Origin: Spirogloea muscicola
Taxonomy: Eukaryota > Streptophyta > Zygnematophyceae > Spirogloeales > Spirogloeaceae
DNA: 25,376 nucleotides
Direction: 5' to 3'
Assembly: GCA_009602725.1 (NCBI GenBank)
Contig: WELB01000042.1
Span: 16,133-41,508 of the forward strand
Of the stretch, positions 1,860 through 25,376 are shown in pieces. The translations under genes and the position numbers were made by a program. The notes beneath the pieces were generated by a model. It was not told where the DNA came from, did no database searches, and was given only the letters and a program-made list of their open reading frames with translations. Within the stretch, counting starts at the first letter, position 1; each line of letters opens with the position of its first letter.

Positions 1860-4800
1860 CTACATGACATTGAAGGATGTCACTTGTTTCGGAGTTGCTA
1901 CAATCAACGGAGCTTCTGGTGTAGTGACTGAGTGATACTGATCATGCATGAATTTGCTGTCCACGATTGACTCATCCTTGGGTACCACCTACACAGGAAC
2001 ATTTACCCGAACCTCAAGACAGCACACCCACTGACCTGCCTCATCGAGTTCACCATCTCATCTATTACCGTCACGATAACCAAAACTTGCAAATGAGAGG
2101 CATTGTGAATGGAAGTGGTACTTGCTGGTCTGAGGCAGCATAGACATACCTTGTAGCAGTAGCAGGACTTGATTCCTTCGGACTGTCGATAGCATTCGTG
2201 ATCTATCTTCACTCGTCGAAAATTCCATATTACTGAATAATTTCCGACTGTTGCCACTATGTTGCGTTCTTGCCGATCACCATCGGTGATCTTCATAGAA
2301 GCAGCAGCAGAGGATGCTGTGAGTGGATAAGCGAGTACAAGCACCATACACCCGAGCAGGTGTGCAGGACATCAGAGCTGCTCCAGTCAAAAGACAGATT
2401 GGAAGAAAGCTTCAGGCAAAGCTGCGGCAGTTCTATCTTCACACCAACTCTGTGACTTACCCAAGAAAACTGGCCCTTCTGAAACCTCAAAGTGTCACCA
2501 GCTGCATGTGCGTCGACAGGATCCAAGCGAAGTATGCGAGGGGCTGCAATGTTTGAACCCATCCTAGCCACAAAGCCAAGCTTCTCCTTGCCATCTTTAT
2601 CCTTGAAGACCGTGGAGATGAGCATCAGATATGTGTCTGTCGTTGCCACCACCCAGTGTCCATCATATGTTACATCAATGTGCGTGATGGGCGACCCTGC
2701 ATACGAAGCAATGCTCAGAAAGGACTGCGAGGACAAATTCACTCGAAATTGCACCTAAGCATGGAATCTGCTGCCATCCCGTGAAACGTAGCAATCCACA
2801 TAACCAGGGCGTCAGTCCACTGCAACAGAATACGTGAGACTCGGGCACCGGAGGTCGAAGTTGGTGAGTTGTAGTACAACCTAGCCCTGGAAAGGAGGTC
2901 TTTGCCATCCGCATGCTGGTTGTGCTGTACAGGCGCACCTTCCCGTCTTTGCTGCCTACGGCAATGCAACCATCTCCCGTGGTAGCAAAGCACTGAAAAC
3001 TTGTGCCACGTGCAAAGCTGTGGCCATCTGACCACTCCAAGGCGGGACTACTCAAGTCTTGAACAACTCCCTGCCTTGCCCTCATGTCCCAGCGGCAAAG
3101 CCTGCAGGCGACAGCACTCTACTCAGAGCCAAAGTGTGACTGCTCTGACAGCTCAAAGCTCCCCTTATTACTGACTAGATGAAAGGCACCTAGATGAGCA
3201 GCAGACTGCAGATAGGCGGCCTCAATTGGTAAGACTGCTCAGCATGCTGAGTAAGGCATGGGCATGACTGATTGGGCATAGGGAGCATCAGGACCACTTT
3301 CAGAGCCATGTCCTGTGAAGGCTGCAACACGGACTCATCAAAGGACAAAAAGCTGGCACAGTGACTGGGGCTGATTGTCCTTAGGGACGAGTCGCAGGCA
3401 CGGATGATTCTCGGGATTCTCATAAGCAAGTGAGCAGAGGCTAAGATGGGGGGGATGTCAGAGGTGAATGGAGACAGGAAGCACACGCAACGAGGAAAGG
3501 CAAGGGGGACTGTATGCAGGCAAGCCCGAAGCAAATTACCTATTGTCATCCAAGCCAAGGAATGTGGAGTGCCCTGCGTCAAGCTGGGAGCTTTTCGAAT
3601 CATTGTTGATATCACGCATGTTGAGATCAACCCCGTCCTTGGCAAACCTCCATTCGGAAACAACTTTGCCCGTATCAATGTCCAGCTGCTTCACACCGCC
3701 TGCTGAATGGAGGGGCGTATCTGCTCCACCCGACGGGCTCATCAGCATCATATTTGTCTCCCCTTTGACCAGCATGCCCTTCCTCGGCGTAGTGTAAGCC
3801 TGCCCTTGGGGACCCTGAACGCGATGGGGGCAAATCGTCAAGGGAGAGGTTATGTACACCCCTTGTGAGAAGCAGACGGGGCTGTGATTCAGCTTCACAC
3901 AGGAGCCTGGGCAGCATCCAGCAAGGTGCCACCTACACACACGCTGATACACCAGCACACCTGAGCAGCACAGGCCACTTTACTTACAGCAATTTGGATG
4001 GACAAGTCGCCACCTTCGACGCCATCTTCCATGTTCTTGTAGACATCGATACCTCCAGCATGGAGTACATAGCTGACAGCGAGGAGAGGCATCTGAGCAC
4101 CTCAATCAGGACACCCGACTTCAAAACACAGGGAGCCGGGCTGAGGTGCACATGAGCCACTGGCAAGATGGCTCCTCTTCCTACCACTGCTTCCATGCTC
4201 CCCTCGGCAACCTCGAGCAGATGCCATGACAAGAGGGCCATGCATACGTGCAAGCCTCACCAGGTGTCATGCCCGGGAAAACTGCATCGGCATTCATCAG
4301 ACAAGGCCCTTTGGGACTTTTACTGCAGGGATGTGGACTTTGCAAACCTGTTCTTCAGTGCCCCCATCGTAAGGCTCTGGGCTCCACGTTTCACATCCCT
4401 ACGATAGGTCTCCTTCATCGGCGACTCAGGAGGGGGAGTCCCGTCTGGAGACTCCTGAGCATCCCACATAGTCTCGTCCCCATCCTCACCAGCTGCCCAG
4501 CCCATGAACTCCTTGCCAATGATCTGCTTACAAGACCACGAGTGGTGGCAACGATGTGAGCATTGAGATGGATGTGCAAGCGGGCACACGCATTGGATAG
4601 TGCACGAGAGGTTGATGAAGCAGCTTGACGCCCCACCTTCATGCGATTCTCGTGTGTAGCCTTCAGCTTGTAAAGATTCTCAAACATGCAGTCTTGATAG
4701 CGAAGTACAAAGGCCCGGTACTGATGAGCCTGGCCTGGCGGAAATTTCAGTGCCCAAACGCCAGCCGCGACAAAATCCATGCGGAGTTCCTCATCATTGA

Positions 4801-6120
4801 ACTTGGCCTAACGAGAGCAAGTAGCCCACGTATGCAGGCTCAATGTCTGAAAGGGTTTGCCAGAAAGCATGCAGGAATTGGGCAAGAGCTTGCTGGTAAA
4901 GGGCTTGTATAGCAGAAGCCAGAGAAGTTATTGCGACAGAGGACCTGGACCTGGACTGCAATCAAAGATGAGAGCAGTGTATAGCCACAAGCATACGTGG
5001 CAGATGCACGGGAAGCTGACGTGACAAGTACGCCTGCAGTCGAGTGAATTCAGCAGGCTGAGAGTATATGGGGCGCTGCAGAAGAGGAACCTGCAATCGC
5101 TCGCTGACGAGCGCTTGCACCTTGGCACCCACCAACAGGTGCCAGTCCTGCGGCACCTCTTCCTTGCCACGCCTGTTGGAAGAAAGAGAGCTCTACTCAG
5201 CTCCTCCTTGAGCTCAGCGAGCAGGTGGAGAGGCAACAAGAAGCAGGAAAGTGCACACTTCTGCAAGCTGGGCCCTCCATCCGTCCCCATCCTCGCCAGT
5301 GGCACCCGAGAGGAGACTGCACCTGGAAGTGGCGGCGTCCTCATCGTCCTCCTCTTCTTCGTCATCGTCCATCTCACCATCGTCCCCAAGGTGCGCAAAT
5401 CTCCAGCTTGTCAGCTTCTCGGCTGTCGCCCAGCGGCCAACCGCACCTGCCCCACCTGCCTCGACTCAGGAGACAACGCATCTGTCAGGCTCCAGGTGCG
5501 CCTCCTCCTTCCCCACTTCTGCACCCATCCAGCAAGGGCGCAGGGCGCTCGCCAGCGTGAGACAGGCATGGAAAGGCATGGCGGCTGCACGAGCATGGTC
5601 GCCAGGGGTGAGCTCTGGAGACAGACTGCGACAGCTGCAACTAGTGCTGGTCAGCCCTGCTATCGGAATGGCAACCTGCGCACAAGGAGGCGCTGAGGCT
5701 GTACAGAGTGACACGCGACCGTCGGTACCCAGGCACCCGGCCAGGTCAGGTACCAGACGTGGTGCCGCGGTTGGAGGCAAGAGTCACAGGTCAGCAAGGC
5801 CTGCAGAGCAGGAGCGGGTGATGGGGCTCTCTCCCGGGGCCAGTGACGGCAGGGGGTCCAACGTCGTGTTGGTCCCCGTCTCCCGCGTCCCACCCCCCTC
5901 CCCGACTGTTTAATGCGGCTCCTGAGGGCACGGCTGGTGTGCACGTGGGGCTGTCGGGCCAGCGGCGGGCAGGTGAGGGAGCGCAGGCGAGCGACGCACG
6001 CGAGGGCTGATGGCGCTCACCGACGTGGTGGTAGAGGCGTGGCGCCGTGGCAGCCTGCTCGGGGCCGCCCTCGGCCTGCAGGCAGTCGCGCGGGTGAGTG
6101 GCAGTGGCGGTGGCGGCCAT
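1860..6120 (-). CDS. VID27/DEM-like protein, 11 exons
   Basis: Exons in transcript order: 6120-6021, 5446-5323, 5172-5091, 4807-4637, 4523-4348, 4072-3988, 3799-3540, 3101-2881, 2696-2461, 2290-2150, 1988-1860. All junctions are GT-AG, phases agree, and the joined frame gives 574 residues. Landmarks: LYHHVGG spans the exon 1/2 junction, then AEKLTSWRF, an acidic Asp/Glu run (about residues 55-70), and a PH-like region with [22 protein letters not shown] and QDCMFENLY. The C-terminal propeller domain has [71 protein letters not shown] and a tail with [13 protein letters not shown]. These match plant Vid27-type/DEM proteins (about 600+ residues). Yeast Vid27 is linked to vacuolar import and degradation and tomato DEM to meristem formation; the molecular role is unknown. 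Exon 7 could instead start at 3814 (five more residues). The N terminus is shorter than in land plants, and poly-C plus an N precede the ATG, so an upstream start is possible. Confidence 0.9.
5447..6020 (-). other. First intron of the VID27-type gene
   Basis: The donor is CACGTCG before GTGAGC (6021/6020) and the acceptor GGGGCAG before GTGCGG (5447/5446), both phase 1. Splicing joins LYHHVG to [17 protein letters not shown], which aligns without a gap to the plant pattern KLYLHIGG..AKWVVSEKLTSYRF. At 574 nt it is the longest intron of the gene. An upstream acceptor 8 nt or so earlier is not excluded. Open frames on either strand inside it are not conserved-looking. Confidence 0.75.
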
Positions 6121-6340
6121 GGGGGGGGGGGNATTAGAAGAAAATTTCGTGTATTGGAAACAAACGACGGCCAAATGGCCAAATACAAAGGTAAGCACAT
6201 CTTAAGATCTACATAACCTACAGTAGATTGACCCGCTCAGTAACCACGGGTCAAAACATCAAGGTCGCTAACTGATGCCTGAATACTAGATGGCAGATAC
6301 GAAGCGCTTCTGCCACCAACTAGAGCTCGCCCAGCTTTTT
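6121..6340. other. Poly-G/N junction and AT-richer unassigned DNA
   Basis: A run of eleven or so G residues (6121-6131) is followed by an N at 6132, then composition drops sharply to AT-rich. This is the immediate upstream side of the VID27-type ATG. The N probably marks an unresolved homopolymer or a collapsed assembly gap. The plus-strand reading through the N is not credible as a gene. From 6140 to 6340 I see no gene or repeat. Confidence 0.5.
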
Positions 6341-6640
6341 TGTGCAAAGCATTAGCCTGAGCCCCCTGCAAACAGGCCGAAAGAAATTAGAAGAGCTGTT
6401 TGTGGTCTCGCAGCCCTTTCCACCTTTGGAAGTGGCGCTCCTGACGAAGGCGAGGGCTGTGAACAGCCAGCCCGAAAGAAGGAAGCGCGTCCAGCGCGTG
6501 AGAGCTGTGGCTGTGAGAGGCCAGCCCCCAAGCCCCAAAGAATGGACAAGGGCTGAAATGAATTGACAAGGTCCGAAGAAGAAGAAGAAAGTGCGAGGGG
6601 GCTGTAAGCGCTTTCCCATTAGCTTTTCCAGTAAGATAAT
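6340..6640. mobile_element. Degenerate LINE tail fragments, subfamily D
   Basis: Two hairpin-like motifs occur: GGGCTGTGAACAGCCAGCCC near 6448-6468 and GGCTGTGAGAGGCCAGCCC near 6510-6528. They are followed by GAATGGACAAGG and GAATTGACAAGGTCCGAAG. The second block matches 21725-21790, 21340-21400 and 23660-23720. GAAGAAGAAGAA near 6574-6587 resembles the simple-repeat end of other copies. No protein-coding part is retained. Confidence 0.5.
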
Positions 6641-6837
6641 CACTTAGTAACCTCCTGTAACCTCTACCTTGGAGGAGCTGTTTCTCTTTTACTTTCCGGA
6701 CTTATTGGTACTCGTCGTTGTTCGACCTCCCTCTGCTCATTCGGTTCCTTGCTTTTGTGACCTGTTTCATCCTTTTCCGCATCCTTTTGAGGCTCCTCAC
6801 TCGTTGCTATTGAGTGATTCGTCCTACCCCTTTTTGG
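6641..6837. other. Pyrimidine-rich unassigned stretch
   Basis: No gene is recognised. The plus strand is rich in TTCC/TTTCC, and at 6787-6830 it contains a diverged copy of the GAGGCTCCTCACTCGT..CTA motif seen at 6888-6915, so it is probably an old, plus-oriented subfamily A fragment. Confidence 0.35.
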
Positions 6838-7052
6838 AGGCTTTCGTCAGGGGGATAGTTTACCGGCAGCTAGTCTGTCGGATGTGAGGCTCCTCACTCG
6901 TAACTACTAAGTGGTCCATCCTCCCCCGTTCTGCCATAGCCTCTCAAGGCCCCGCAGTCGCTGCTTAGCTCGTAGTTTGGCCCCTTCGAACCTTGTCAAT
7001 TCTTTTCGGGCTGGCTTCTCACAGCCCTTGCCCCCATTGGGAGAGCCACTTC
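6838..7052 (+). mobile_element. LINE-like copy, subfamily A, plus orientation
   Basis: This is the reverse complement of the A sequence at about 8655-8880 and 10063-10256, and a near-identical direct copy of 22870-23082. It runs from the end of the coding part (GCTTTCGTCAGGGGGATAG..., then the CTCACTCGTAACTAC stop region) through the 3' tail. The tail carries GGGCTGGCTTCTCACAGCCC and ends ATTGGGAGAGCCACTTCTTCTCC. The 3' end abuts the 3' end of an oppositely oriented subfamily C copy at 7053. Confidence 0.75.
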
Positions 7053-7222
7053 TTCTCCTTGAGGATAGGGGCTGGGAAAAGCCAGCCCAGAAAAGAATGA
7101 GCAGAGTACGAGAAGGGGCCAGGGGAAGCACTGAGAAAACCAAGCACAACAATAAACTAAGCAGCTACGAAGCACTCAGTGACCCCTGCCAAGCAGCCTC
7201 AGGTCAGAGAGACTGGGCTCCT
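7053..7222 (-). mobile_element. 5'-truncated LINE-like copy, subfamily C
   Basis: The tail hairpin GGGGCTGGGAAAAGCCAGCCC lies at about 7068-7088. It is followed by the C 3' UTR (AGAAGGGGCCAGGGGAAGC...GCAGCTACGAAGCACTCAGTGACC) and the start of the coding end (AGACTGGGCTCCTGGAA). The same order occurs at 8200-8296, 10257-10555 and 23190-23640. The copy is cut at about 7222 where unrelated sequence begins. Confidence 0.7.
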
Positions 7223-7329
7223 GGAATAGATGCGGCTGCTGATATTCAAAGAGCGGCTGTAAGAGGCCAGCCAGATGCATACAGCTGTTCATGACGGAGC
7301 CACCAGGCTAGGCAGACAGGGCGCTCTTA

Positions 7330-7471
7330 GGGCCAATCTACACCGGGACGGCCGGGCGCAAATTGGCCTCCGTTTGGCCTCAAATCAGCAAGAATTTGAC
7401 CAATGCCGCTCCATACACTGCGCGACACGTACCCCTCGGCCGCGTCCGTCCGTCCCGGTGTCAAGTGGCCC
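7330..7471. mobile_element. Candidate MITE with terminal inverted repeats
   Basis: The left end reads GGGCCA-ATCT-ACACCGGGACGG. The reverse complement of the right end reads GGGCCA-CTTG-ACACCGGGACGG. These 22-nt termini differ only in the four middle positions and bound 142 bp with no coding capacity. Flanks are TTA on the left and TTC on the right, a possible decayed 3-bp target duplication. GGGCC-type ends with TTA duplications would fit a PIF/Harbinger-derived element, but the superfamily is an inference. Confidence 0.6.
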
Positions 7472-7522
7472 TTCAGTACCCCCGTGTCAGCAATAGGAAG
7501 TCAGATGAGCGGGAGGAAGAGG

Positions 7523-7960
7523 AAGTGCTCGCCCATGGAGAAGAGGGGCTGGCAAAGCCAGCCCTAAAAAGAATGGACAATGTCCAAAAGCCAAAGAAAG
7601 AGAAGCCGGCAGCGCTATGGCACAAAAAAGAAACGAAGCAGCTACGAAGCACTCAGTAACCCCTGCTAAGCAGCCTCAGGTCAGAGAGACTGGGTTCCTG
7701 GAAGCGGGTCCCCTGGCCAGAGCCAGAGGCAGCAGCGAGGGCTCTGCCTGCACGCAGGTGCAGCGCGCGGGCCATAGACCTCTGCAGCGGCCCTGCCAAG
7801 CGCATGCGGTACACCTGCGCTAGCGACCCTGCTGCATGGGAATCGACCGGCTCCCCATGGAAGCGGCGGACAATGGCGTGGCGGGAGAGCTGGTTGAGCA
7901 GCTCAAGCCACCGAGCGCCCAGCGCCCCGTGCGTATCGATGGTGAGGAAGAGCTACCCCG
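7523..7960 (-). mobile_element. Chimeric LINE-like copy: B tail joined to C body
   Basis: The tail at 7529-7610 is subfamily B (GGGCTGGCAAAGCCAGCCC, then GAATGGACAATGTCCA and AAGCCAAAGAAAGAG). At about 7615-7620 the sequence switches to the C 3' UTR (AAAAAAGAAACGAAGCAGCTACGAAGCACTCAG) and continues through the C coding end to about 7960, almost identical to 23285-23620. The minus strand encodes HGALGARWLELLNQLS-like residues, then YRMRLA.., LQRS and ALHLRAGRALAAASG, broken by a few indels. Confidence 0.65.
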
Positions 7961-8170
7961 CTGCGCAAGCCAGAGGCTGCTGCAAGGGCAAGGGTGCAAC
8001 CAGCGCGGCGGTGCAAAGGAAGCCCTTGGGACCGCTGTAGGGACATAGATAAACGCATGCGGTAGCAGGACACAAGAATCAAAAGGCACCGAGCCACCGG
8101 GAAGGGCTGCACCCTGTTCCCGGCGCCACTGGTCAGCTTGACATGCCAGCAGCGAAAGGAAGCGGGTCCC
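7961..8170 (-). mobile_element. LINE-like coding fragment, subfamily E
   Basis: The minus strand encodes CYRMRLSMSLQRS followed by LPLHRRAGCTLALAAASG. This is the same protein core as subfamilies A-C, but the nucleotide sequence differs clearly, so it is a fourth subfamily. It lacks a recognisable 3' tail of its own. The residues before the core are out of frame. It sits between the 5' side of the chimeric copy and a C tail at 8195. Confidence 0.55.
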
Positions 8171-8296
8171 CTGGAAGCGGGTCCCCTGGCCAGAAGAAGA
8201 AGAAAGGGCTCGCCCATTGAGGGTAGGGGCTGGAAAAGCCAGCCCAAAAAAGAAGGAACGAAGTACGAGAAGGGGGCCAGGGGAAGCGCTAAGAAG
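8171..8296 (-). mobile_element. Truncated tail, subfamily C
   Basis: A C-type end follows GAAGAAGAAGAAAG: GCTCGCCCATTGAGGGTAGGGGCTGGAAAAGCCAGCCC, with the hairpin at about 8225-8243. Then come about 50 nt of C 3' UTR (GTACGAGAAGGGGGCCAGGGGAAGCGCTAAG). It is cut at 8296, exactly where a B copy's 3' end starts. A duplicated GGAAGCGGGTCCCCTGG lies just left of it (8160-8190). Confidence 0.6.
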
Positions 8297-8621
8297 GTGC
8301 TCGCCCATAGAGAAGAATGGACAATGTCCAAAGCCAAAGAAAGAGGAGCCGGAAAAGGACTACACTCCAAAACAGAAGACGATGCAGAGGGAAGCTCAGT
8401 ACCCGCGAGTGAGCGACATCAAGTTTGAGTAGCTCGCTGGAGGGAAAGAGGCACTCCGCCGAGACCCAGAGGCGGCGGCCATAGCACGGCCTGCTCGCGT
8501 GTGGTCGGCGTAGGCAAGGGAGCGTTGAAAAGATACCGCCACGCGCATTCAGAATACCTGGGCGAGCGAACCGGCGGCGTTGAAGCCGGGCATCGCCCCT
8601 GGCAGACCCGGCCGCCGGTCA
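8297..8621 (-). mobile_element. LINE-like copy, subfamily B, missing the tail hairpin
   Basis: The copy begins GTGCTCGCCCATAGAGAAG and passes directly into AATGGACAATGTCCA, so the GGGCTGGC..GCCAGCCC hairpin present in other B copies is absent. The 3' UTR and coding end follow (AGAGGCGGCGGCC..., GAACCGGCGGCGTTGAAGCCGGGCATC) and stop at CGGCCGCCGGTC. Minus-strand codons give LQRS, AHAVHTRAGRA-type residues with indels. Loss spans about 28 nt compared with 9205-9250. Confidence 0.7.
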
Positions 8622-9187
8622 GAAGGAGGAAGTGCTCGCCCAAAGAGAAGAAAGTGGCACTCCCCATGGGGGCAAGGGCTGTGAAAAGCCAGCCCGAAAA
8701 AGAATTGACAAAGGTTCGAAGGGGCCAAATGATGGAGGGGCCTAAAAAGCGCTAAGCAGCTACTAAGGGGCCTGAAGAGGCTATGTCAGAACGGGGGAGG
8801 ATAGGCCACTCAGTAGTTACGAGTGAGGAGCCTCAAATCCGACAGACTAGCTGCCGGAAAACTATCCCCCCTGACGAAAGCCGGATGCCGCAGCGAGAGC
8901 CCGGCCAGCACGCAGATGCAAGGCGTGGGCCATGGATCGCTGAAGGGAGACGGACAATCGCATACGGTAGACCTGCGCCCACGAGCCAGCGGCGTTGAAG
9001 TCAGCCGGCTCACCGCGCCTGCGGGACACAGCGCGCCGCGCAAGCCTGGCCAGCAGGTCGAGCCACTGGGACCCGAGAGCCCCGTGCACGTCCTCAGCCA
9101 GGGGGACGAACTCATCTGCAGCCGGGTGGTCGGCGTGTTTGGCCGCCTTGCTGAGCGGCCTTCGCCGCAGCGAGAGGATGGGCTGGC
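8622..9187 (-). mobile_element. LINE-like copy, subfamily A, with long coding end
   Basis: A short B-tail remnant (8622-8654) is followed by an A tail: CCCATGGGGGCAAGGGCTGTGAAAAGCCAGCCC at about 8664-8696, then the A 3' UTR. A coding end runs from about 8818 up to about 9170. Minus-strand residues are clear: KHADH, DEFVPLA, HGALGSQWLDLLARLARRA, RRRGEPADFNAAGSWAQ, VYRMRLSVSLQRS, HALHLRAGRALAAASG and LSDLRLLTRNY. It is the best preserved A coding segment here and represents only the last part of a longer protein. Confidence 0.75.
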
Positions 9188-9748
9188 AAAGAAGACGTGC
9201 GCTCCCATAGAGAAGAGGGGCTGGCAAAGCCAGCCCAAAAAAGAATGGACAATGTCCAAAGCCAAAGAAAGAGGAGCCGGAATAAGGACTACACTACAAA
9301 ACACTGCAGAACACAGAGACGATGCAGGGAAGCTCAGTACCCACGAGTGAGCAACATCAGGTCTGAGTAGCTCGCTGCAGGGAAAGAGGCACTCCGCCGA
9401 GACCCAGAGGCGGCGGCCACAGCACGGCCTGCTCGCGTGTGGACGGCGTGGGCAAGGGAGCGTTGAAGCGATACGGCCAGGCGCATGCGGGAGACTTGTG
9501 CGAGCGAACCGGCGGCGTTGAAGCCGGGCATCGCCCCTGGCAGACCCGGCCGCCGGTCAATGGCCTGGCGAGCAAGCCGCTGAAGGAGATCCAGCCAGCG
9601 GCTGCCGAAAGCCCCGTGTACATCCGCCAGGGCCGCGAATTCATCTCCAACCGGGTGATCAGCATATTTTCGCTCCTTGCCCCGGGCCGCTTGGCCGACG
9701 ACGCCGATCTGGTGAGATTGGCGGAGTCGATGCAGTCAGTTGTCACCA
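9188..9748 (-). mobile_element. LINE-like copy, subfamily B
   Basis: The tail has GCTCCCATAGAGAAG, hairpin GGGCTGGCAAAGCCAGCCC at about 9218-9236 and dyad TGGACAATGTCCA at about 9246-9258, then the B 3' UTR. Minus-strand coding continues with SASFPAASYSDL, RAGRAVAAASG, RMRLAVSLQRSLAHAVHT and, after 9540, DVHGAFG-like and RWLDLLQRLARQA-like residues up to about 9660. This is the longest B copy in the window. Several frame breaks show it is not functional. Confidence 0.75.
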
Positions 9749-9759
9749 CATCAGCGGAA

Positions 9760-9990
9760 TGCATAGAGAAGAGGGGCTGGCAAAGCCAGCCCAAAAGAAA
9801 TGGACAATGTCCAAATGGCCTGACGGGCAAGCCGCTGGAGGAGATCCAGCCAGCGGCTGCCAAAAGCCCCGTGAGAACATCTATCGCCAGGGCCGCGAAC
9901 CATCACCAACCGGCTGATCAGCGTGTTTTCGCTCCTTGCCCCGAACCGCCAGGCCGACGGCATGTGCGAAACGTCGGGCTCCGTAGAGAG
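9760..9990 (-). mobile_element. Internally deleted LINE-like copy, subfamily B
   Basis: The tail (GAAGAGGGGCTGGCAAAGCCAGCCC and TGGACAATGTCCA) at 9768-9812 is followed at once by TGGCCTGACGGGCAAGCCGCTGGAGGAGATCCAG, which matches 9561-9600. Everything normally between (3' UTR and the YRMRL..LQRS coding core) is missing. Minus-strand residues include GSRWLDLLQRLARQA. The junction lies at a shared AATGGCC, suggesting deletion at a microhomology. Confidence 0.65.
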
Positions 9991-9994
9991 ACGA

Positions 9995-10060
9995 ATGGCA
10001 GGCCCTTAGGAGGCCCTTGTTTTAGGCTGGCTTTGCCAGCCCTTCTTCTCTATGAAGACG
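9995..10060 (+). mobile_element. LINE tail fragment in plus orientation
   Basis: The plus strand reads TAGGCTGGCTTTGCCAGCCC followed by TTCTTCTCTATGAAGACGAAG, the reverse complement of the tail at 9768-9790. It contains only tail sequence and faces the oppositely oriented A copy at 10061, another tail-to-tail joint. Confidence 0.55.
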
Positions 10061-10256
10061 AAGTGGCTCTCCCAATGGGGGCAAATGCTGTGAGAAGCCA
10101 GCCCGAAAAGAATTGACAAGGTTCGAAGGGGCCACTACGAGCTAAGCAGCGACCGCGGGGCCTGAAGAGGCTATGGCAGAACGGGGGAGGATGGACCACT
10201 CAGTAGTTACGAGTGAGGAGCCTCACATCCGACAGACTAGCTGCCGAAAAACTATC
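10061..10256 (-). mobile_element. 5'-truncated LINE-like copy, subfamily A
   Basis: The tail is CTCTCCCAATGGGGGCAAATGCTGTGAGAAGCCAGCCC (to about 10106), then GAATTGACAAGGTTCGAAGGGGCC and the A 3' UTR, ending shortly after the stop region (TTACGAGTGAGGAGCC...AAACTATCCCC). It is 5'-truncated at 10256, where the end of a C copy begins. Nearly identical to 6838-7052 in reverse orientation. Confidence 0.7.
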
Positions 10257-10555
10257 CCCGTCTCTATGGGCGCGCACTTCCTCTTAGGAAAGAGGGGCTG
10301 GCCAAGCCAGCTCAGAGAAGAACGAACAGAGGACGAGAAGGGGCCAGGAGAAGCACCAAGGACAACAAGCACAAGAAGAACCTGAGCAGCTACGAAGCAC
10401 TCGGTAACCCCTGCGAAGCAGCCGCAGGTCAGAGAAACTGGGCTCCTGGAAGCGGGTCCTCTGGCCATAGCCCGAGGCGGCAGCGAGAGCCCTGCCGGCA
10501 CGCAGGTGCAGCGCGCGGGCCATTGACCTCTGCAGCAAGACGGCCAAGCGCATGA
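10257..10555 (-). mobile_element. LINE-like copy, subfamily C, just upstream of VPS51
   Basis: The tail reads ATGGGCGCGCACTTCCTCTT, with hairpin GGGGCTGGCCAAGCCAGCTC at about 10295-10314. It continues through the C 3' UTR to the coding end, with minus-strand residues RMRLAVLLQRS, ARALHLRAGRALAAASG and FSDLRLLRRGY. It is truncated at GCGCATGAA near 10555, about 70 bp before the VPS51 ATG, so it lies in or next to that gene's promoter. Confidence 0.7.
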
Positions 10556-17148: not shown

Positions 17149-20100
17149 TCAGTGCCACTGGAATGTGTAATTGTATGAGGAGGCCAGCCTGGAGAGCACC
17201 TCGCTGACGCCAGCCTCTTTGGCAAGCTTCGACCCGGCCAGCTCCGTCAACTTCACCTCCAATTTCATCCTCTCTGTCGTCCGCGCCTTCTCTCCCCCGC
17301 TGGGCAGTGTGTAGTCATAGCCGGAGCTGAGGCTAGACGATGCCGGAGCAGCCATCAGCCCGTGCCCTCTGGACTGGAAGATGGGCTCAGACCTACTAGA
17401 ACCGTCTGCACCTGGCCTTCCCCAAGATGCGGAAGGCTCCTCCTCAAGAACCTCCGTTACTGCTCTCCTCTCGTCCAGCCTGGCCAGCACTCCGGGCTCG
17501 GCTTGCTCCTCCTCAACTGCTTGCCGGCAGTTGTCCAGGGTGACTGGCTGCGCTGGAATGGCTGACTGACCCACAAGCCTTCCTCGCAGGCGCTCGGGCA
17601 GGTCGTGGTCATCAAGCCAGGATGGTGTCCTGGCAGGCCCTGGTGACAATGAGGTGCTCTGAGGGACGCAACGAGCGTCTGGGGAGAGAGCCTCCCTCCC
17701 CACCACCTGGCCCAGGCAGGTGGGCCCCAGGCCCAGGCCCAGGCCCAGACCCAGGCCCAAGCCTCCAAGATGCATCTCCTCCACACCCGCTGCCTGCTCC
17801 TGGGCACCCAGTGGAGGTCCCGCTCGGGTCTCAAGCGTGGCATCACCCCTGACGCTGGAACTGCGAGCCTCGAAGTGTGAGAGACCCCTGAGCACGTCCC
17901 GTGTGCAGAGCTCTTCGTCCAGGAGATGACGAGCAGGCCGCAACTCCGAGGGGCCGACCTTGATTCCTTCCAGCACATCCTGCAATTGTGCGGCGGCACT
18001 GGCGGTTGGAAGACGGGGCCGTCCTGCACGTGCTCCACCGCTCCTCGAGCTCATGGAGGACCCCTGCTGCTCCAACATGGTCAGGAACATGCCACCAGAT
18101 TCAGGTCGGTCTGCAGTAGTCTTGCATTGGTAAACAGCGGAGCTACATGGTGAGATTCATGTCTCCGTACCAGTGACGGCACACCCTGGTCGGCGCCGAC
18201 GCCCGCGGTGAGGGCGTGGGGCACGGCCAGCGAGGCTTCCCGAGCCACAAGCCTCTTCTCGCCCTCCCCACCCGCGGGCTGGCTCAGCGCAAGCTCCAAG
18301 CGTGGACTCAGAATGTGACTTCCGGCTGCTCCCAGGCAGCCGGCCACGCTCCCCTCGTCAGCAGCCAGGGACTTCAGGAAGCTGGTGGGCAGAGCGAGCC
18401 CACTGCTCCAGGACTTTGCAGCCTCCCGCCGGATCTCGCCAGCCAGACGCTCCCCAGAGGCAGCCAGGTCAGCAGCATGCGTGCGCGCGCCTTCCGATGC
18501 TTCCAGAATGGCTTTGGGAACGCCTCTCTCTGCTCTGTCTGCTCTGTCTGCAGCCAGCTTCAAACTTGCTGGGTCCGGCAGCACGTGTCGGGCATCTCCG
18601 CCGGCTGATAGCGCAGTCGCTGCCCTGCGGGCAAGAGTGGCGGTGGCGGCGGCAGCAGTTGCAGCTTCCCGTTTTCCTGGCTCTGCGCTCCACGTTTCTT
18701 CCTGCCTCCACGCCTCTCCATCATCCTCGCTCAAATCTGCTGACTGCTCCCGCCTCCGTAGCTTGGCACCCCCGGCAGACGGTCGAGCCTTTGCTGCGCC
18801 AAGCAAACCCTCCTCCACCCTGTCGTACCTCGAAGGAGGCATGCCCCTCCTTGCTGTGCCCAAGCTCTCAGCACTGAGAGCCACAACCAGCTGCCGCGAG
18901 GCCCTCTCCTGATTGGCTGCAAGAAGTTCAGAGCGTGCTCCACCTGGGCTTCCCGTCAGCCCAAGCCCTCGCTCAGTGGCGGCCCCACGGACAACTTCCA
19001 CCTGCCGAAAGGCTTCCGCCACTCTCTCGCCTTCCTGCCGTTGTCGACGGATGCGGTTGGCCAGCGTGTGCCATCGACTCTGGAGCTGCGGTGTCAACCC
19101 ATGACAATGCAGGCCGTCATCATCCACGTCCCAGGCCAGCCACTCGGCGTTCTGAACCCTTTGCAGACGCGCGAACAGCACGGTATACACGGAGCGACCA
19201 AGGCATGTCAGGCATGAGTGGAAAGCTCGAGCAATGCATAGCCACCAGAGCCGGTCGCCATCAGAGCCAGGAGTGCTGTCCGATGCTTTGGAAACGGCAA
19301 CAACCAGCAAGGCTGGCAAGCTGCCAAGGGGCTAAGCAAGAAGCTCGACGCAGCTGAGGCTTAAATGCAGACGGATGAATACCAAAGGGCAAGCGCGCAG
19401 GGTGGAAACTGATTGCAGGGCTGTAAGCGCCCCAGGCATGGAGGCGGGCGGAGATGTCCCCTCGGCAGGCCGGCGAGACACGCACCTGGTAACCGGTCCT
19501 CCTGGGGAAGCAGTTGGCGGCGAGGGCGGTCCACTTGGTGCCCTTGTCCCACGACACCATCTCCATGAGCAGGCTGTCCTCCTCTGGGCTGAACGGGTCC
19601 CGCTTCACTGATGGGTCCAGGTAGCTGAACCACCTCAGGCGACAGCTCTGTGCATGCCGCCACCAAGGGGCCCCATCAGGCGCGGTCGCCGAGCACCGGG
19701 GCACAAGGGGTCTGTCTCGTCAGCGTGGCTGCAAGCTCGCCCTGGTGGGGTGGCCAGGGCACTCCTTCACCAGGCACCATCGGCCACTTTTGCAGCGAGC
19801 AGCAGTCCAGAGGGGCAGCAATTTTCGCGCTGGTGGTGCCTTTACCCCACTGCAGTCTTTGGCAGGAGCCCAAATCATATGCCAGGGCCTTGGGTCAAGG
19901 CCAAGTTGCATCGCAATGAATGTATTGCTGCTGCTAGCTGCTGGCTGGGGCTGGGGGGAGGCAAGCACGGAATGGCTCACTTGCGAGTCACGGCGGAGGC
20001 GCGTGTGGTCCTGCACGTGCCTCCAGTAGTCGACACCCCACTTCTGCACAAACTCGTTGAGCTCGCGGTCCTCCTCCGGCGTCCATGGGCCCCTCTCCTT

Positions 20101-20902
20101 GTCGAGCACTCGCGAGCGTGCATCGACCCCCTTGGGGCCTGGCCACGGCAGGGACGGGGAGCAGCGCTGCTTGAGGTCAGGGGCCACGAGAGAGGCCTCG
20201 GTGGATGCTCCAGACGAGGCTAGCTCTGTGACAGAGGTCAGAGCCGAGGAAGGGGCTGGAGCAGGCCGAGCTGGGCACACCCGTGCCACTGGTCCCCCAG
20301 CCGAGTCATGGGGGCGCAGGGATGCGTCACGAGCGAGGACAGCGTCGCAGGGCAGGTTGCAGCGGTTGCAAGAGCGAGAGTGCACAGGAGAGCGGGAGCG
20401 GCGTAGAGAGTGCAGCATGTGGCCAGGGTGGGGGAGAAGAGAGGCAGGTGGGCGGAGGGGGGCAAGGCAGAGAGAGGCAAGGGGAAGGTCCATGTACATG
20501 GGCAGAGGACAGGTGTGCACGAGGTCAGCCAGAGGCAGACAAGGAGGGGCGGGCGAGCGGAAGGAAGAGGAGGCGCAGAGAGCGGGGAAGAGGGAGGGGG
20601 AGGAGAGAGAGTCGGCGTGGAGAAGAGGCGAGCAGAGGAGGCCATCATGGTGAACAGAGGCGGGTGCAGAGGAGAAACAGGGCGGGGCCCCGCAGCAGCG
20701 GCAGAGGCAGGGTGAGAAGCGGGCAGCGCCGATGGATGTCCCCGGCGCATGGCCCGGATGGGGCCCCGGGCTGGCGCGGCGCTCACCGGAGAGGTTGGCC
20801 TTGCGGCGGCGCTTGCGCTGGTCGCGCGCCTGCGCCGCCGACGCCCTGGCGTCGTCGGGGGGCGGGGGCGCGGAGGGGGAGGGCGNGCGGCGGGGGATCC
20901 AT
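17149..20902 (-). CDS. R2R3-type MYB DNA-binding protein, 5 exons
   Basis: Exons in transcript order: 20902-20787, 20225-19981, 19647-19486, 19085 to 18171 (or 18185), and 18120 (or 18110) to 17149. Repeat R2 is GPWTPEEDRELNEFVQKWG..YWRHV, then SCRLRWFSYLDPSVKR. R3 is PFSPEEDSLLMEMV..GTKWTALA and RRTGYQ, completed across a splice by LQSRWHTLANR. The first Trp of R3 is Phe, as usual in plant R2R3-MYBs. A basic KRRRKAN stretch precedes the repeats and may be a nuclear signal. The roughly 600-residue C-terminal part is Ala/Glu/Arg-rich with a Gly-Leu repeat; no domain is recognised. The product is about 800 residues, long for an R2R3-MYB. Exon 1 contains an N at 20886; the frame from the ATG (20902, or 20932 in the same frame) reaches the repeats only if that N is not a real base. 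It is a likely transcription factor; its targets are unknown. Confidence 0.85.
17725..17763. repeat. GGCCCA hexanucleotide microsatellite in the MYB coding region
   Basis: CAGGCC-type hexamers repeat about six times with single changes. On the coding (minus) strand they give alternating Gly-Leu codons (about seven pairs), so the copy number can vary without breaking the frame. Confidence 0.85.
20226..20786 (-). other. First intron of the MYB gene, purine-rich on the plus strand
   Basis: A 561-nt intron with donor CTCTCCG before GTGAGC and acceptor TGTCACAG. Phase 1 joins NLS to ELASSGAST. Its coding-strand sequence is strongly pyrimidine-rich with CTCTCC/CCTCC repeats (about 20400-20640), which explains long chance open frames on both strands. 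Confidence 0.7.
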
Positions 20903-20989
20903 GGCCGCGTCGCCGCCGGCGCAGGGGCCCATGGCGGCGGGGGGCGCGCAGTCAACGGCGGGGGGACGGGGGGCAAAATGATCCTCGAC

Positions 20990-21224
20990 AAGGCATCGGC
21001 GGCGGCGGCGGCGGAGCCAATGGCTGGCGGCGCGCAACGGGCGTGGGGGCGCAGCCGACAGCGCGCTGCGACTCCACTTCCCCCTCGGCTGACTCCGCTC
21101 CCTCATCCCCCCACTCCAGGCGCTGCCGCTTCTGCCACTCACTCGCCCGAGTCCCGGAGAGTCGTTTCGAGCTCTTTGCGCCATCCGGCCCTTCCCGACA
21201 TTCTGTGTCGGCCTCTGCTTACTT
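20990..21224. other. Upstream region of the MYB gene
   Basis: GC-rich with a GGC trinucleotide run at about 20998-21013, becoming less GC-rich beyond 21130. It presumably contains the 5' UTR and promoter. No TATA box or recognisable site stands out. Long open frames here come from composition. Confidence 0.4.
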
Positions 21225-21984: not shown

Positions 21985-22503
21985 GGCGAAAGTGGCTCTC
22001 CCAATGGGGGCAAGGGGCTGTGAGAAGCCAGCCCAAAAATGAATTGACAAGGTTCGAAGGGGCCAAGGTATGAAGGGGCCAAAAAGCGCTGTCACAGAAC
22101 TGGGAGAAATTGGACCATTCACTAGCTACGAACGTGGAGCCTCTGATCCGAAAGACTAGATGTCAGATAACAATCCCCTGACGAAAGCCAGAGGCCGCAG
22201 CGAGAGCACGGCCAGCACGCAGGTGTAAGGCGTGGGCCATGGACCGCTGAAGGGATGGAGAGTCGCATGCAGTATACCTGCGCTAAGGAGGCAGCGGCGT
22301 TGAAGTCAGCCTGCTCTCCTCGCCTGCGGGACACAACGCGCCGCGCAAGCCTGGCTAGCAGGTCGAGCCACTGGGACTCAAGAGCCCCGAGCACAACCCC
22401 GGCCAGTGGTACGAACTCGTCCTGAGCCGAGTGGTCAGCGTGTTTCGCCGCCTTGCTGCGAGCGGCGTTCGCCGCAGCACGGCCAGCCCTCGAGGCAGAA
22501 AGC
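21985..22503 (-). mobile_element. LINE-like copy, subfamily A, long version
   Basis: The tail has CTCCCAATGGGGGCAAGGGGCTGTGAGAAGCCAGCCC, then the A 3' UTR and the coding end. Minus-strand residues include ARSKAAKHADH, DEFVPLA, LESQWLDLLARLARRV, RRRGEQADFNAAASLAQ and VYCMRLS, with frame breaks afterwards. It is cut at about 22503, where GAAGAAGAAAGTGCTCGCC marks the 3' end of the next B copy. With the copy at 8655-9187 it defines the subfamily A coding end. Confidence 0.7.
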
Positions 22504-22866
22504 CCCAGATTAGAAGAAGAAAGTGCTCGCCTATAGAGAAGAGGGGCTGGCAAAGCCAGCCCAAAAAGAATGGACAATGTCCAAAGCCAAAGAAAGAGGT
22601 GCCGAAAAGGACTACACTACAGAATACGAGACGATGCAGAGGGAAGCTCAGTACCCGCGAGTGAGCAACATCAAGCCAGAGTAGCTCGCTGCAGGGAAAG
22701 AGGCACTCCGCCGAGACCTAGAGGCAGCAGCCAGAGCACGGCCTGCTCGCGTGTGGACGGCGTAGGCAAGGGAGCGTTGGAACGAGACCGCCAGGCGCAT
22801 ACGGAAGACCTGAGCGAGCGAACCGGCGGCGTTGCAGCCCGGGCAGCGCCCCCGGCCGGGTCTGCC
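22504..22866 (-). mobile_element. LINE-like copy, subfamily B
   Basis: Complete B tail: GCTCGCCTATAGAGAAG, hairpin GGGCTGGCAAAGCCAGCCC at about 22546-22564, dyad TGGACAATGTCCA at about 22570-22582, then the 3' UTR and the coding end up to CGGCGGCGTTGCAGCCCGGGCAG. Close to the copies at 9188 and 8297. It is 5'-truncated, and a plus-oriented A copy follows. Confidence 0.7.
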
Positions 22867-22867
22867 C

Positions 22868-23082
22868 TTCCCCTGGGGGATAGATTACCGGCAGCTAGTC
22901 TGTCGGATGTGAGGCTCCTCACTCGTAACTACTAAGCGGTCCATCCTCCCCCGTTCTGCCATAGCCTCTTCAGGCCCCGCAGTCGCTGCTTAGCTCGTAA
23001 TTTGGCCCCTTCGAACCTTGTCAATTCTTTTCGGGCTGGCTTCTCACAGCCCTTGCCCTCATTGGGAGAGCCACTTCTTCCC
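22868..23082 (+). mobile_element. LINE-like copy, subfamily A, plus orientation
   Basis: Near-identical to 6838-7052 over about 210 bp, from GGGGGATAGATTACCGG through the stop region to the tail GGGCTGGCTTCTCACAGCCC and CATTGGGAGAGCCACTTCTTCCCC. It then meets CTGGCAGACCCGGCCGCCGGTCC, a B body motif also present at 8598-8619 and 9538-9559. The high identity to the copy 16 kb away suggests recent activity or duplication. Confidence 0.7.
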
Positions 23083-23189: not shown

Positions 23190-23640
23190 CCATTGAGGAT
23201 AGGGGCTGGAAAAAGCCAGCCCAGAAAAGAATGAACAAAGGACGAGAAGGGGCCAGGGGAAGTACGAAGAACAACAAGCACTAAAAAAGAAACGAAGCAG
23301 CTACGAAGCACTCAGTAACCCCTGCTAAGCAGCCTAAGGTCAGAGAGACTGGGTTCCTGGAAGCGGGTCCCCTGGCCAGAGCCAGAGGCAGCAGCGAGGG
23401 GCTCTGCCTGCACGCAGGTGCAGCGCGCGGGCCATAGACCTCTGCAGCGAGACGGCCAAGCGCATGCGGTACACCTGCGCTAGCGACCCTGCTGCATGGG
23501 AGTCCACCGGCTCCCCATGGAAGCGGCGGACAATGGCGTGACGTGAGAGCTGGTTGAGCAGCTCGAGCCACCGAGCGCCCAGCGCCCCGTGCGTATCGAT
23601 GGCGAGCGGGAAGAACTCGTCTTCCCGCGGGTGATCTAGG
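23190..23640 (-). mobile_element. LINE-like copy, subfamily C, long version
   Basis: The tail GGGCTCGCCCATTGAGGATAGGGGCTGG..AAAAAGCCAGCCC is followed by the C 3' UTR and the longest C coding end. Minus-strand residues, across a few indels, include EFFPLAIDTHGALGARWLELL, NQLSRHAI, HGEPVDSHAAG, YRMRLAVSLQRS, ARALHLRAGRALAAASG and SLSDLRLL. These give the subfamily C version of the shared C-terminal domain. It is 5'-truncated at about 23640. Confidence 0.7.
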
Positions 23641-24595: not shown

Positions 24596-24926
24596 CTTCC
24601 GTGGTGGTGGTCTGGCTCCTCAGCTTAGCTTGTCAGATATGCATGTGCTCACTCGCGGATAGTAGTGTCCCTTTTAGCCAGCTCATTGCCCCGTTACCAG
24701 GACATTTGTAAGGTCAGATTTGGCCTCGCTTTATTTTCATGCGCACCGCGCGCCTTCTCTCTTCCGTGGTGGTGGTTTGGTGCCTCAGCTTAGCTTGTCA
24801 GATATGTATGTGCTCACTCGGGGATATTAGTGTCCCCCTTAGCCTGCTCATCACCCAGTTAACAGGTCATTTGTAAGGCTTGAATTGGCCTCCCTCTCAA
24901 TTTCATGCGCACCGCGCGCCTTCTCT
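24596..24926. repeat. Two tandem units of about 165 bp
   Basis: Unit 1 is 24596-24760 and unit 2 is 24761-24926. Both start CTTCCGTGGTGGTGGT, share CTCAGCTTAGCTTGTCAGATATG and ATGTGCTCACTCG, and end TTTCATGCGCACCGCGCGCC-TTCTCT. They differ by scattered substitutions. No coding potential or terminal inverted repeat was seen. They could be two units of a satellite or a duplicated element end. Confidence 0.85.
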
Positions 24927-25376
24927 CTTCCAGGAGAGCAGGCTGCTAGAGGAGTGAGGCAGCAGCAGTGGCAGGAGGAATGAGGGGGGGGGAAAGAGGG
25001 CCGGCAGTGCCGATTGGGGCCTTGTCAACCGGTCCTGCTGGAGCTGCTAGAGGAGGAGTGGAGCAGCAGCAGTAGCAGGAGGGCGGAGAATGGCAGTGGG
25101 GGGGAGGAGGCCCGGAAGTGCCATTGAGGGCCTTGTCGGCCTGGCCTGCGTCCGCTTCAGGAGCTGCTAGAGGAGTGGAGCAGCAGCAGTGGCTGGAGGG
25201 ATGGCGGGGGTGGGAAGGATGGCCAGAAATGCCGATAGAGGCCTTGTCGACCCGTCCTGCGTCCGCTTCTGGGGCTGCTGGAGGAGTGGGAAGCAGCAGC
25301 TGTGGCAGGAGGGTAGCGGGGGTGGGAGGGAGGGCCGGCAGTGCCGGGGCAGCCAAGAGCAGGGTGGCCGAAGGGA
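24927..25376. repeat. Minisatellite of about 100-120 bp units, truncated by the window edge
   Basis: GCTGCTAGAGGAG-type starts recur at about 24942, 25043, 25163 and 25273, each followed by AGCAGCAGC, GGCAGGAGG, a G-rich run, GCAGTGCCG-like and GGCCTTGTCG motifs. Spacings of roughly 101, 120 and 110 bp show unit-length variation. The minus strand is open for 136 codons with repeated AAPEADAG..VDKA residues, but no start, splice context or homologue supports a gene. Confidence 0.8.

Follow-up and report, generated by a model that had tools for sequence, protein, structure and literature searches.

Truncated LINE 3' ends with a common tail hairpin occupy the locus

The stretch of DNA analysed here, called the window below, comprises 25,376 nucleotides (nt) of the genome of Spirogloea muscicola (Zygnematophyceae; contig WELB01000042.1, positions 16,133 to 41,508), and it contains many copies, mostly truncated 3' ends, of long interspersed nuclear elements (LINEs) whose tails carry a short hairpin. 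This hairpin is our subject, both as a signal at the 3' end of the elements and as a DNA site into which they insert. A strict scan for GGGCTGGC and CAGCCC separated by 2-6 nt, with zero substitutions, found 12 distinct hairpins in the window, eight of them within positions 6340-10555, where reading the sequence added three degenerate ones at about 10024, 10086 and 10295 (Table 1); the initial annotation had counted at least ten copies ending in a short stem-loop, and this count held. Sites of the form GGGCTGGCTTT..CAGCCC were found eight times in the window and never in 100 dinucleotide-preserving shuffles, and no Rfam family reached its gathering score in the window.

The hairpins are of several types: A (GGGCTG-8 nt-CAGCCC), B (GGGCTGGC-TTT-GCCAGCCC), C (GGGCTGG-5 or 6 nt-CCAGCCC) and others, including type D, which ends in CAGCCA and was observed in loci retrieved from the genome. 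Type A, with a stem of only 6 bp and a loop of 8 nt, has the weakest stem of them. Most window copies are in minus-strand sense, as had been described, but the strict A copies at 7008 and 23033 lie on the plus strand. Likewise, the ATGGG(c/a)GAGC motif that had been placed after each hairpin does not hold for type A, in which the 3' motif is ATTGGGAGAGC instead of the GGGCGAGC of B and C, nor for the copies at 7069 and 9774, in which the motif is cut by other sequence. Minus-strand frames upstream of the hairpins match the C-terminus of a LINE protein (tblastn), a Pfam scan of nine window frames gave neither a reverse transcriptase nor an endonuclease match in the LINE fragments, and very short tail-only copies are also present.

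The elements probably belong to R2-like LINE families

We then searched the assembly (153 Mb in 471 contigs) and found 1,721 copies of the exact B hairpin and 3,993 copies of the A pattern (GGGCTGGCTTYTCRCAGCCC), each with zero matches to the reversed-pattern control. Searches with three C-terminal peptides yielded 19,211, 16,186 and 14,845 first-look candidates; each search scored 150 of them. A genome search with RVT_1 scored 150 of 985 candidates, which were not grouped by family. One B tail, at G000:C12:293889-293951, has the loop AAA in place of TTT, as if the hairpin had been flipped.

The full-length element that the initial annotation proposed to look for was found in B and C: six B copies of about 4.3 kb (L001-L006) and the C elements L025-L028. 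Since the six B copies, aligned over about 4.27-4.31 kb, are 99.7-99.95% identical in pairwise comparisons, the B family must have moved recently. Each of the six has a single open frame of 1,386-1,433 amino acids from stop to stop, which in L001 stops 93 nt upstream of the hairpin. A Pfam scan of three full-length B frames gave RVT_1 with an E value of 2.4e-13, and this match, together with the C-terminal protein pieces in the window, supports the annotation of these elements as LINEs that encode a reverse transcriptase. In the same scan, read up to E 1, RVT_1 was the only match and no apurinic-type endonuclease was found, although a diverged domain could escape such a scan. NCBIfam gave only a sub-threshold match to group II reverse transcriptases. 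When a profile of five sequences, from the reverse transcriptase to the protein end, was compared with the PDB, its best solved relatives were three R2 sequences (E 2.9e-7 to 2.6e-6), and its remaining three matches were at chance level; a phmmer search of the PDB with a single protein found nothing up to E 1, so that R2 was found by the five-sequence profile only. B and C proteins are 67-69% identical and both keep, at the C-terminus, a CxC..HxxxC knuckle and an R-R-x-D-L...D-V-V-T-T-D stretch, which were spotted by eye and have no Pfam match. To the eye, these motifs resemble the C-terminal zinc knuckle and the PD-(D/E)xK-like, restriction-like endonuclease of R2-group elements, and they may represent them. 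A, B, C and D are probably R2-like LINE families with a restriction-like endonuclease. At about 800-850 of L001, an inverted piece resembling the A 3' untranslated region (UTR) is joined to the 5' end of the full-length B copy, in a manner like twin priming or template jumping.

The hairpin has a fixed place at a 3' end that is shared between families

To look at the 3' boundary, we collected 110 3' junctions from the window and the retrieved loci, using a scan that needed the tail-end motif and an upstream CAGCC, so that tails lacking either were uncounted. At these junctions the end of the tail is conserved and the flanks differ from one another, commonly after (TTC)n of variable n or after TCTC, and none of the 110 ends in poly(A). 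The hairpin lies about 25-28 nt before the 3' end, or 27-28 nt when one terminal TTC or TCTC is included (four representatives), which bears out its proposed position at the 3' boundary. Moreover, ten B hairpins picked by their order in the genome-wide list, regardless of context (L011-L020), all have the tail motif downstream, in some of them as a variant.

Seven representatives of A, B, C and D were used to compare this tail with the 3' UTR upstream of it. Between families, upstream identity was 0.48-0.65, at or slightly above the level of shuffles (0.45-0.58), whereas tail identity was 0.66-0.83 against 0.53-0.58 for shuffles. The families thus resemble one another more in the tail than in their remaining 3' non-coding sequence, and the earlier description of differing UTRs with a like tail stands for these families, except for the pair C3 and D1, which are equally alike upstream (0.65) and in the tail (0.66). 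Some elements carry the tail of another family: in L025, a C body with the start of a C 3' UTR is joined to a B tail that is followed by unrelated sequence, L065 has a similar C body with a B tail, and L073 has a hybrid tail. Such elements would be the expected products of cDNA synthesis that begins on a B tail and continues on a C RNA; an insertion followed by a deletion could also have produced them.

As RNA, the B and C tails fold better than their dinucleotide shuffles (z of -3.3, -2.4, -4.1 and -3.5). The position and conservation of the tail hairpin, and the examples of R2, UnaL2 and maize L1 elements, make it plausible that the reverse transcriptase recognises it in RNA. The minimum-energy folds of B1, B2, B3 and C3 also contain an outer helix that pairs an upstream TTGTCCAT-like stretch with a downstream ATGGGCGA. 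C1 has this helix in a shifted form, and C2, A and D1 lack it; as D1 keeps TTGTCCAT without its partner, we do not claim this helix.

The elements insert preferentially into the loop of tail hairpins

The initial annotation took the tail as an RNA signal and overlooked a second property: these elements prefer the hairpin DNA as a place to insert. They enter it at the loop, mostly with matching orientation, and the break point recurs. Among 20 A loci taken regardless of their flanks, five (L045, L047, L051, L056 and L058) have a 3' flank that begins inside the loop of another tail. At the 5' sides of these inserts (L101-L105), the insert starts right after the matching left half of a hairpin of the same tail type in 5/5 cases, the tails entered being of types D, C, A, A and B. 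Two others, L106 and L107, are less clear, the site in L106 being hairpin-like (CTGGCTTTTGCC|CAGCC) and perhaps not a tail. We also took 20 later cases from the list of loop junctions described below, with 1.6 kb of upstream sequence each: the matching half was clear in three (L118, L121 and L124) and partial in four (L111, L114, L120, in which the left arm is only CTCTGGC, and L127).

A break just before AGCCC accounts for the left half in seven of the eight clear cases. This break is unambiguous in L103, L104, L105 and L121, whereas L102, L124 and L118 require one, two and three bases, respectively, that are shared with the insert; for L118, the insert's own sequence has A before GCTCG in 11 of 11 retrieved copies. 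The same seven cases show a repeat of about 6-8 nt that spans the loop (TTTTACC, TTTTCGC, TTTGCC, TTTTCC and the like), and the rare TTTTACC variant stands on both sides of the L102/L047 insert. In the last 120 bases of L113, four tails, some full and some partial, follow one another in the order B, C, A, B, and each seems to have been inserted into the tail of the next.

We next estimated how frequent such junctions are, using A-type ends defined by GGGAGAGCCACTTC (n=2,617) and searching for anchors within 16 nt after the end, where a 6-mer is expected by chance about 11-19 times. CAGCCC, the 3' arm of the hairpin, followed 217 of these ends, which we call loop junctions; GGGCTG followed 110, mostly at the T-run just before a hairpin; ATGGGC, which in B and C belongs to the tract beyond the hairpin, followed 45; and GTACTGAGC, a site in the B body about 95 nt upstream of the hairpin, followed three. 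Fisher tests gave p about 2e-62 for loop versus body and about 1e-9 for loop versus GGGCTG, with junctions treated as independent, which duplicated regions violate. In the retrieved loci, which are a non-random sample, GTACTGAGC is matched 27 times and the exact B hairpin 38 times; because the anchors differ in length and in copy number, the ratios between them are approximate. The first 100 listed loop junctions comprise 70 distinct strings and, by a letter rule, 76 are in the same orientation, six in the opposite one and 18 are other.

Other families were also found in loops. Forty flanks of B2-type copies gave three same-orientation loop cases, one opposite case and two insertions in the distal tract. 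Among the 110 junctions, where 12 pattern-flagged rows were read and five dropped as doubtful or as not being tails, clear loop cases numbered 5/35 for A, 1/23 for C and 1/22 for B2/C3. Many other insertions in this set precede TTT or TTC in pyrimidine tracts, so that a loose C|TTT preference also exists.

A tail that may act as both end signal and landing site

We consider it likely that the tail of these R2-like LINE families serves at once as a 3' end signal and as a landing site that the elements supply themselves. To judge by the repeats, one strand of the target is broken at the 5' side of the loop, at about GGC|TTT (the exact bond is blurred by the TTC end of the insert). The break in the other strand falls slightly inside the 3' arm, a few bases from its start (C|AGCCC), which leaves the repeat of about 6-8 nt. 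The protein may bind the tail in its own RNA for template choice, as R2 and UnaL2 proteins do, and may also prefer the tail sequence in DNA; every copy would then offer the next one a landing site, and nested clusters would grow. A stronger version, in which one protein reads the hairpin twice, as RNA for the template and as DNA (perhaps an extruded hairpin) for the target, is a tentative idea that we put on the unlikely side. In that version the tail would be a portable and self-renewing landing site by which new copies are led into dead relatives and kept out of genes.

Several results weigh against this reading. Loop insertion is a preference that accounts for about 8% of A ends, and most insertions are elsewhere, many of them in pyrimidine-rich places. 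Clear loop cases were 0/24 for B3 and 0/6 for B1 among the 110 junctions, and B2-type loop cases were 3/40, two of the three having near-identical flanks. On the side of the individual cases, 13 of the 20 later ones give no 5' verdict (the 5' end is out of reach, contains N or is complex), the repeats of L103 and L121 carry one mismatch each, and L101 has no clear repeat and is off the break point. The type of endonuclease is based on motifs spotted by eye, and the predicted structure from the reverse transcriptase to the protein end, at a mean pLDDT (predicted local distance difference test) of 36, is too poor to confirm it. As for the RNA structure, two copies of the A tail fold no better than shuffles (z of -0.4 each), and neither does the single D stretch that was folded, which starts at the T-run and extends into flanking sequence (z of -0.8). 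The compensatory stem changes that the initial annotation suggested as a check were not seen either. The stem arms are identical in A, B and C, which leaves nothing to compensate between families. Within B, 80 copies were selected by their flanks only and 74 could be aligned; 41 of these have perfect stems and, among 45 changed pairs in the B copies, 27 are broken and 18 still pair, 17 as G-T and a single one through a two-sided change. Since the B copies are mostly dead, no compensation is expected in them, and with a stem that is near-invariant between families this check is weak evidence either way.

The alternative that we take most seriously, even if we think it unlikely, is that the tail is only an RNA signal, and that the endonuclease and the (TTC)n end of the RNA favour any C|TTT or pyrimidine tract, in which the very numerous tails happen to be rich. 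Insertions at other pyrimidine tracts, such as those before TTTG in several unrelated places, fit this explanation, as do the 110 A ends that precede GGGCTG, whose first 100 rows comprise 66 same-orientation T-run insertions, 18 opposite ones and 16 unclear ones. However, loop junctions outnumber both these GGGCTG junctions and those in the distal tract (217 versus 110 and 45), and the left break falls at one point in 7/8 clear cases. Furthermore, the first 100 loop rows include, by the letter rule, 50 with A-type loops, whereas A-type T-runs (TTTTC before GGGCTG) make up seven of the first 100 GGGCTG rows, although the T-run suits C|TTT better. This difference, and a second break that repeatedly falls in the stem arm, lead us to favour recognition of the tail sequence, whether duplex or extruded hairpin, over that of a bare T-run.

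The likeness of the tails could instead reflect a recent divergence of the families, or tail swapping by template jumping, with a hairpin that is not under selection. The B tails on the C bodies of L025 and L065, the hybrid tail of L073 and the pair C3 and D1 would fit such a history, which we nevertheless find improbable, considering that the other cross-family pairs are near shuffle level in the upstream 3' UTR and that B and C proteins differ by about one third, and that A, B and C have stem arms of one sequence. Template jumping, which is known for R2-type enzymes, might also have left half tails beside full tails if the reverse transcriptase moved between RNA templates at the hairpin, and chains of partial tails such as that of L113 would fit this. 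Nonetheless, the missing half was found at the other end of the insert, in the same tail type, in 5/5 first cases and in three clear later ones, and 7/8 clear cases have a loop-spanning repeat, including the rare TTTTACC on both sides of L102/L047. Matching halves and loop-spanning repeats that flank the insert exclude template jumping for the clear cases; it could hold for the 13 later cases that lack a 5' verdict, and as a general origin of the half tails it is very unlikely. Finally, the thousands of hairpin copies and the one B copy with a flipped AAA loop might bring to mind an independent mobile palindrome, like a miniature inverted-repeat transposable element (MITE) or a repetitive extragenic palindromic (REP) sequence, that inserted into LINE tails; the tail motif after 10/10 B hairpins taken regardless of context makes this hardly credible.

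Comparison with known LINEs

UnaL2 ends in short terminal repeats. The elements described here resemble such stringent-type LINEs in having a stem-loop just upstream of the 3' end and short (TTC)n or TCTC repeats rather than poly(A). In stringent-type LINEs (UnaL2 and zebrafish ZfL2-1 and ZfL2-2), a short stem-loop of the 3' tail is described as being recognised by the element's protein, and for ZfL2-1 and ZfL2-2, which belong to the L2 clade, assays are reported to have shown that the linker between endonuclease and reverse transcriptase binds the tail (PMC4176376). Unlike these zebrafish elements, the S. muscicola elements have an R2-like reverse transcriptase, and their tail recognition is predicted only. 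In a maize and sorghum L1 lineage, the last ~45 nt are described as far more conserved than the rest, with a hairpin followed by a CGAG motif, and compensatory changes were reported in a stem whose sequence varied (PMC3747384). A conserved 3' tail with a hairpin and then a motif (GGGCGAGC in B and C) is likewise found here, whereas A, B and C do not differ in their stem arms. R2 is reported to use only RNAs with the R2 3' UTR in target-primed reverse transcription (PMC4117753). Our elements are like R2 in encoding a single protein, and R2 provides the nearest solved relatives of their reverse transcriptase; unlike R2, which inserts at one site in 28S ribosomal DNA, they are dispersed and favour their own tails, with 110 junction flanks that differ from one another.

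In green algae, nested insertion into existing copies, with arrays of 3' ends, has been described for Zepp and Zepp-like LINEs (PMC8226300, PMC3446292), and it is also what we observe. As described, Zepp belongs to the L1 clade, ends in poly(A) (PMC8226300, PMC3747384) and forms one cluster per chromosome in Coccomyxa. In contrast, the copies analysed here are found on many contigs, A enters A, B, C and D tails at the hairpin loop, the ends are (TTC)n or TCTC, the reverse transcriptase is nearest to R2 in the PDB and an apurinic-type endonuclease was not found in the B frames. The targets listed for sequence-specific LINEs in one account are ribosomal RNA, transfer RNA and spliced-leader genes, telomeric repeats, microsatellites and transposons (PMC4640811), and in the literature searched, which covers few subscription journals, we found no report of a LINE that enters the loop of its own tail hairpin. 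Thus, the tail hairpin (stringent-type LINEs), the use of RNAs with the 3' UTR only (R2) and nesting (Zepp) are known already, and what is new is the hairpin DNA as an insertion hot spot. The growth of dense nested clusters would be explained by a LINE group whose own 3' tail contains the target that it prefers; tail-targeting would also give a natural sample of thousands of insertions from which target rules can be drawn, and would make it testable whether an R2-like protein uses one recognition surface for template and target.

Features of the window

The tail hairpins and protein remnants of the window are collected in Table 1.

Table 1. Tail hairpins and LINE protein pieces in the window
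Feature	Position	Strand	Basis
Hairpin of a further family (GGGCTGGCTGTTCACAGCCC)	6454..6473	-	strict scan
A-type tail hairpin, GGGCTG-GCTTCTCA-CAGCCC	7008..7027	+	strict scan
C-type tail hairpin; 3' motif lost after CTCAA, other sequence beyond	7069..7088	-	strict scan and reading
B-type tail hairpin, GGGCTGGC-TTT-GCCAGCCC	7546..7564	-	strict scan and form search
LINE protein C-terminal part, C type (61% to B), with 95% DNA identity to the 23399-23606 copy	7656..7946	-	tblastn
C-type tail hairpin	8227..8245	-	strict scan
LINE protein C-terminal part, B type (84%)	8399..8620	-	tblastn
A-type tail hairpin, loop GCTTTTCA	8676..8695	-	strict scan
LINE protein C-terminal part, A type (65% to B)	8850..9152	-	peptide search and tblastn
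Half hairpin TTTGCCAGCCC right behind a B tail end; possible loop insertion within the window, left half not found in the window	9180..9190	-	read from sequence
B-type tail hairpin	9218..9236	-	strict scan and form search
LINE protein C-terminal part, B type, 91% identical to L001 residues 1285-1406	9337..9699	-	tblastn
B-type tail hairpin; another B copy interrupts the 3' motif after CTCTATG	9774..9792	-	strict scan, reading and tblastn
Degenerate B-type hairpin (AGGCTGGCTTTGCCAGCCC), very short copy	10024..10042	+	read from sequence
Degenerate A-type hairpin, within an inverted copy of 6978-7092	10086..10104	-	read from sequence
Degenerate hairpin of like kind	10295..10313	-	read from sequence
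A-type tail hairpin	22015..22034	-	strict scan
B-type tail hairpin	22544..22562	-	strict scan and form search
A-type tail hairpin	23033..23052	+	strict scan
C-type tail hairpin, GGGCTGG-CTTTTT-CCAGCCC	23203..23222	-	strict scan
LINE protein C-terminal part, C type	23315..23636	-	peptide search and tblastn

Besides these, the 3' end of another LINE family is present in two tandem copies (period 165) at 24596-24931; it ends in ATGCGCACCGCGCGCCTTCTCTCTTC, without a GGGCTGG hairpin, and a tail like ATGCGCACCGCGCGCCTTCTCTCTTC is also present in L015 and L022. A minisatellite with a period of 111 and 3.5 copies lies at 24942-25333. On the minus strand, the window further contains frames matching VID27, with DUF7135 upstream, at about 2675-4807, and frames with a Myb DNA-binding domain at 19261-21102.

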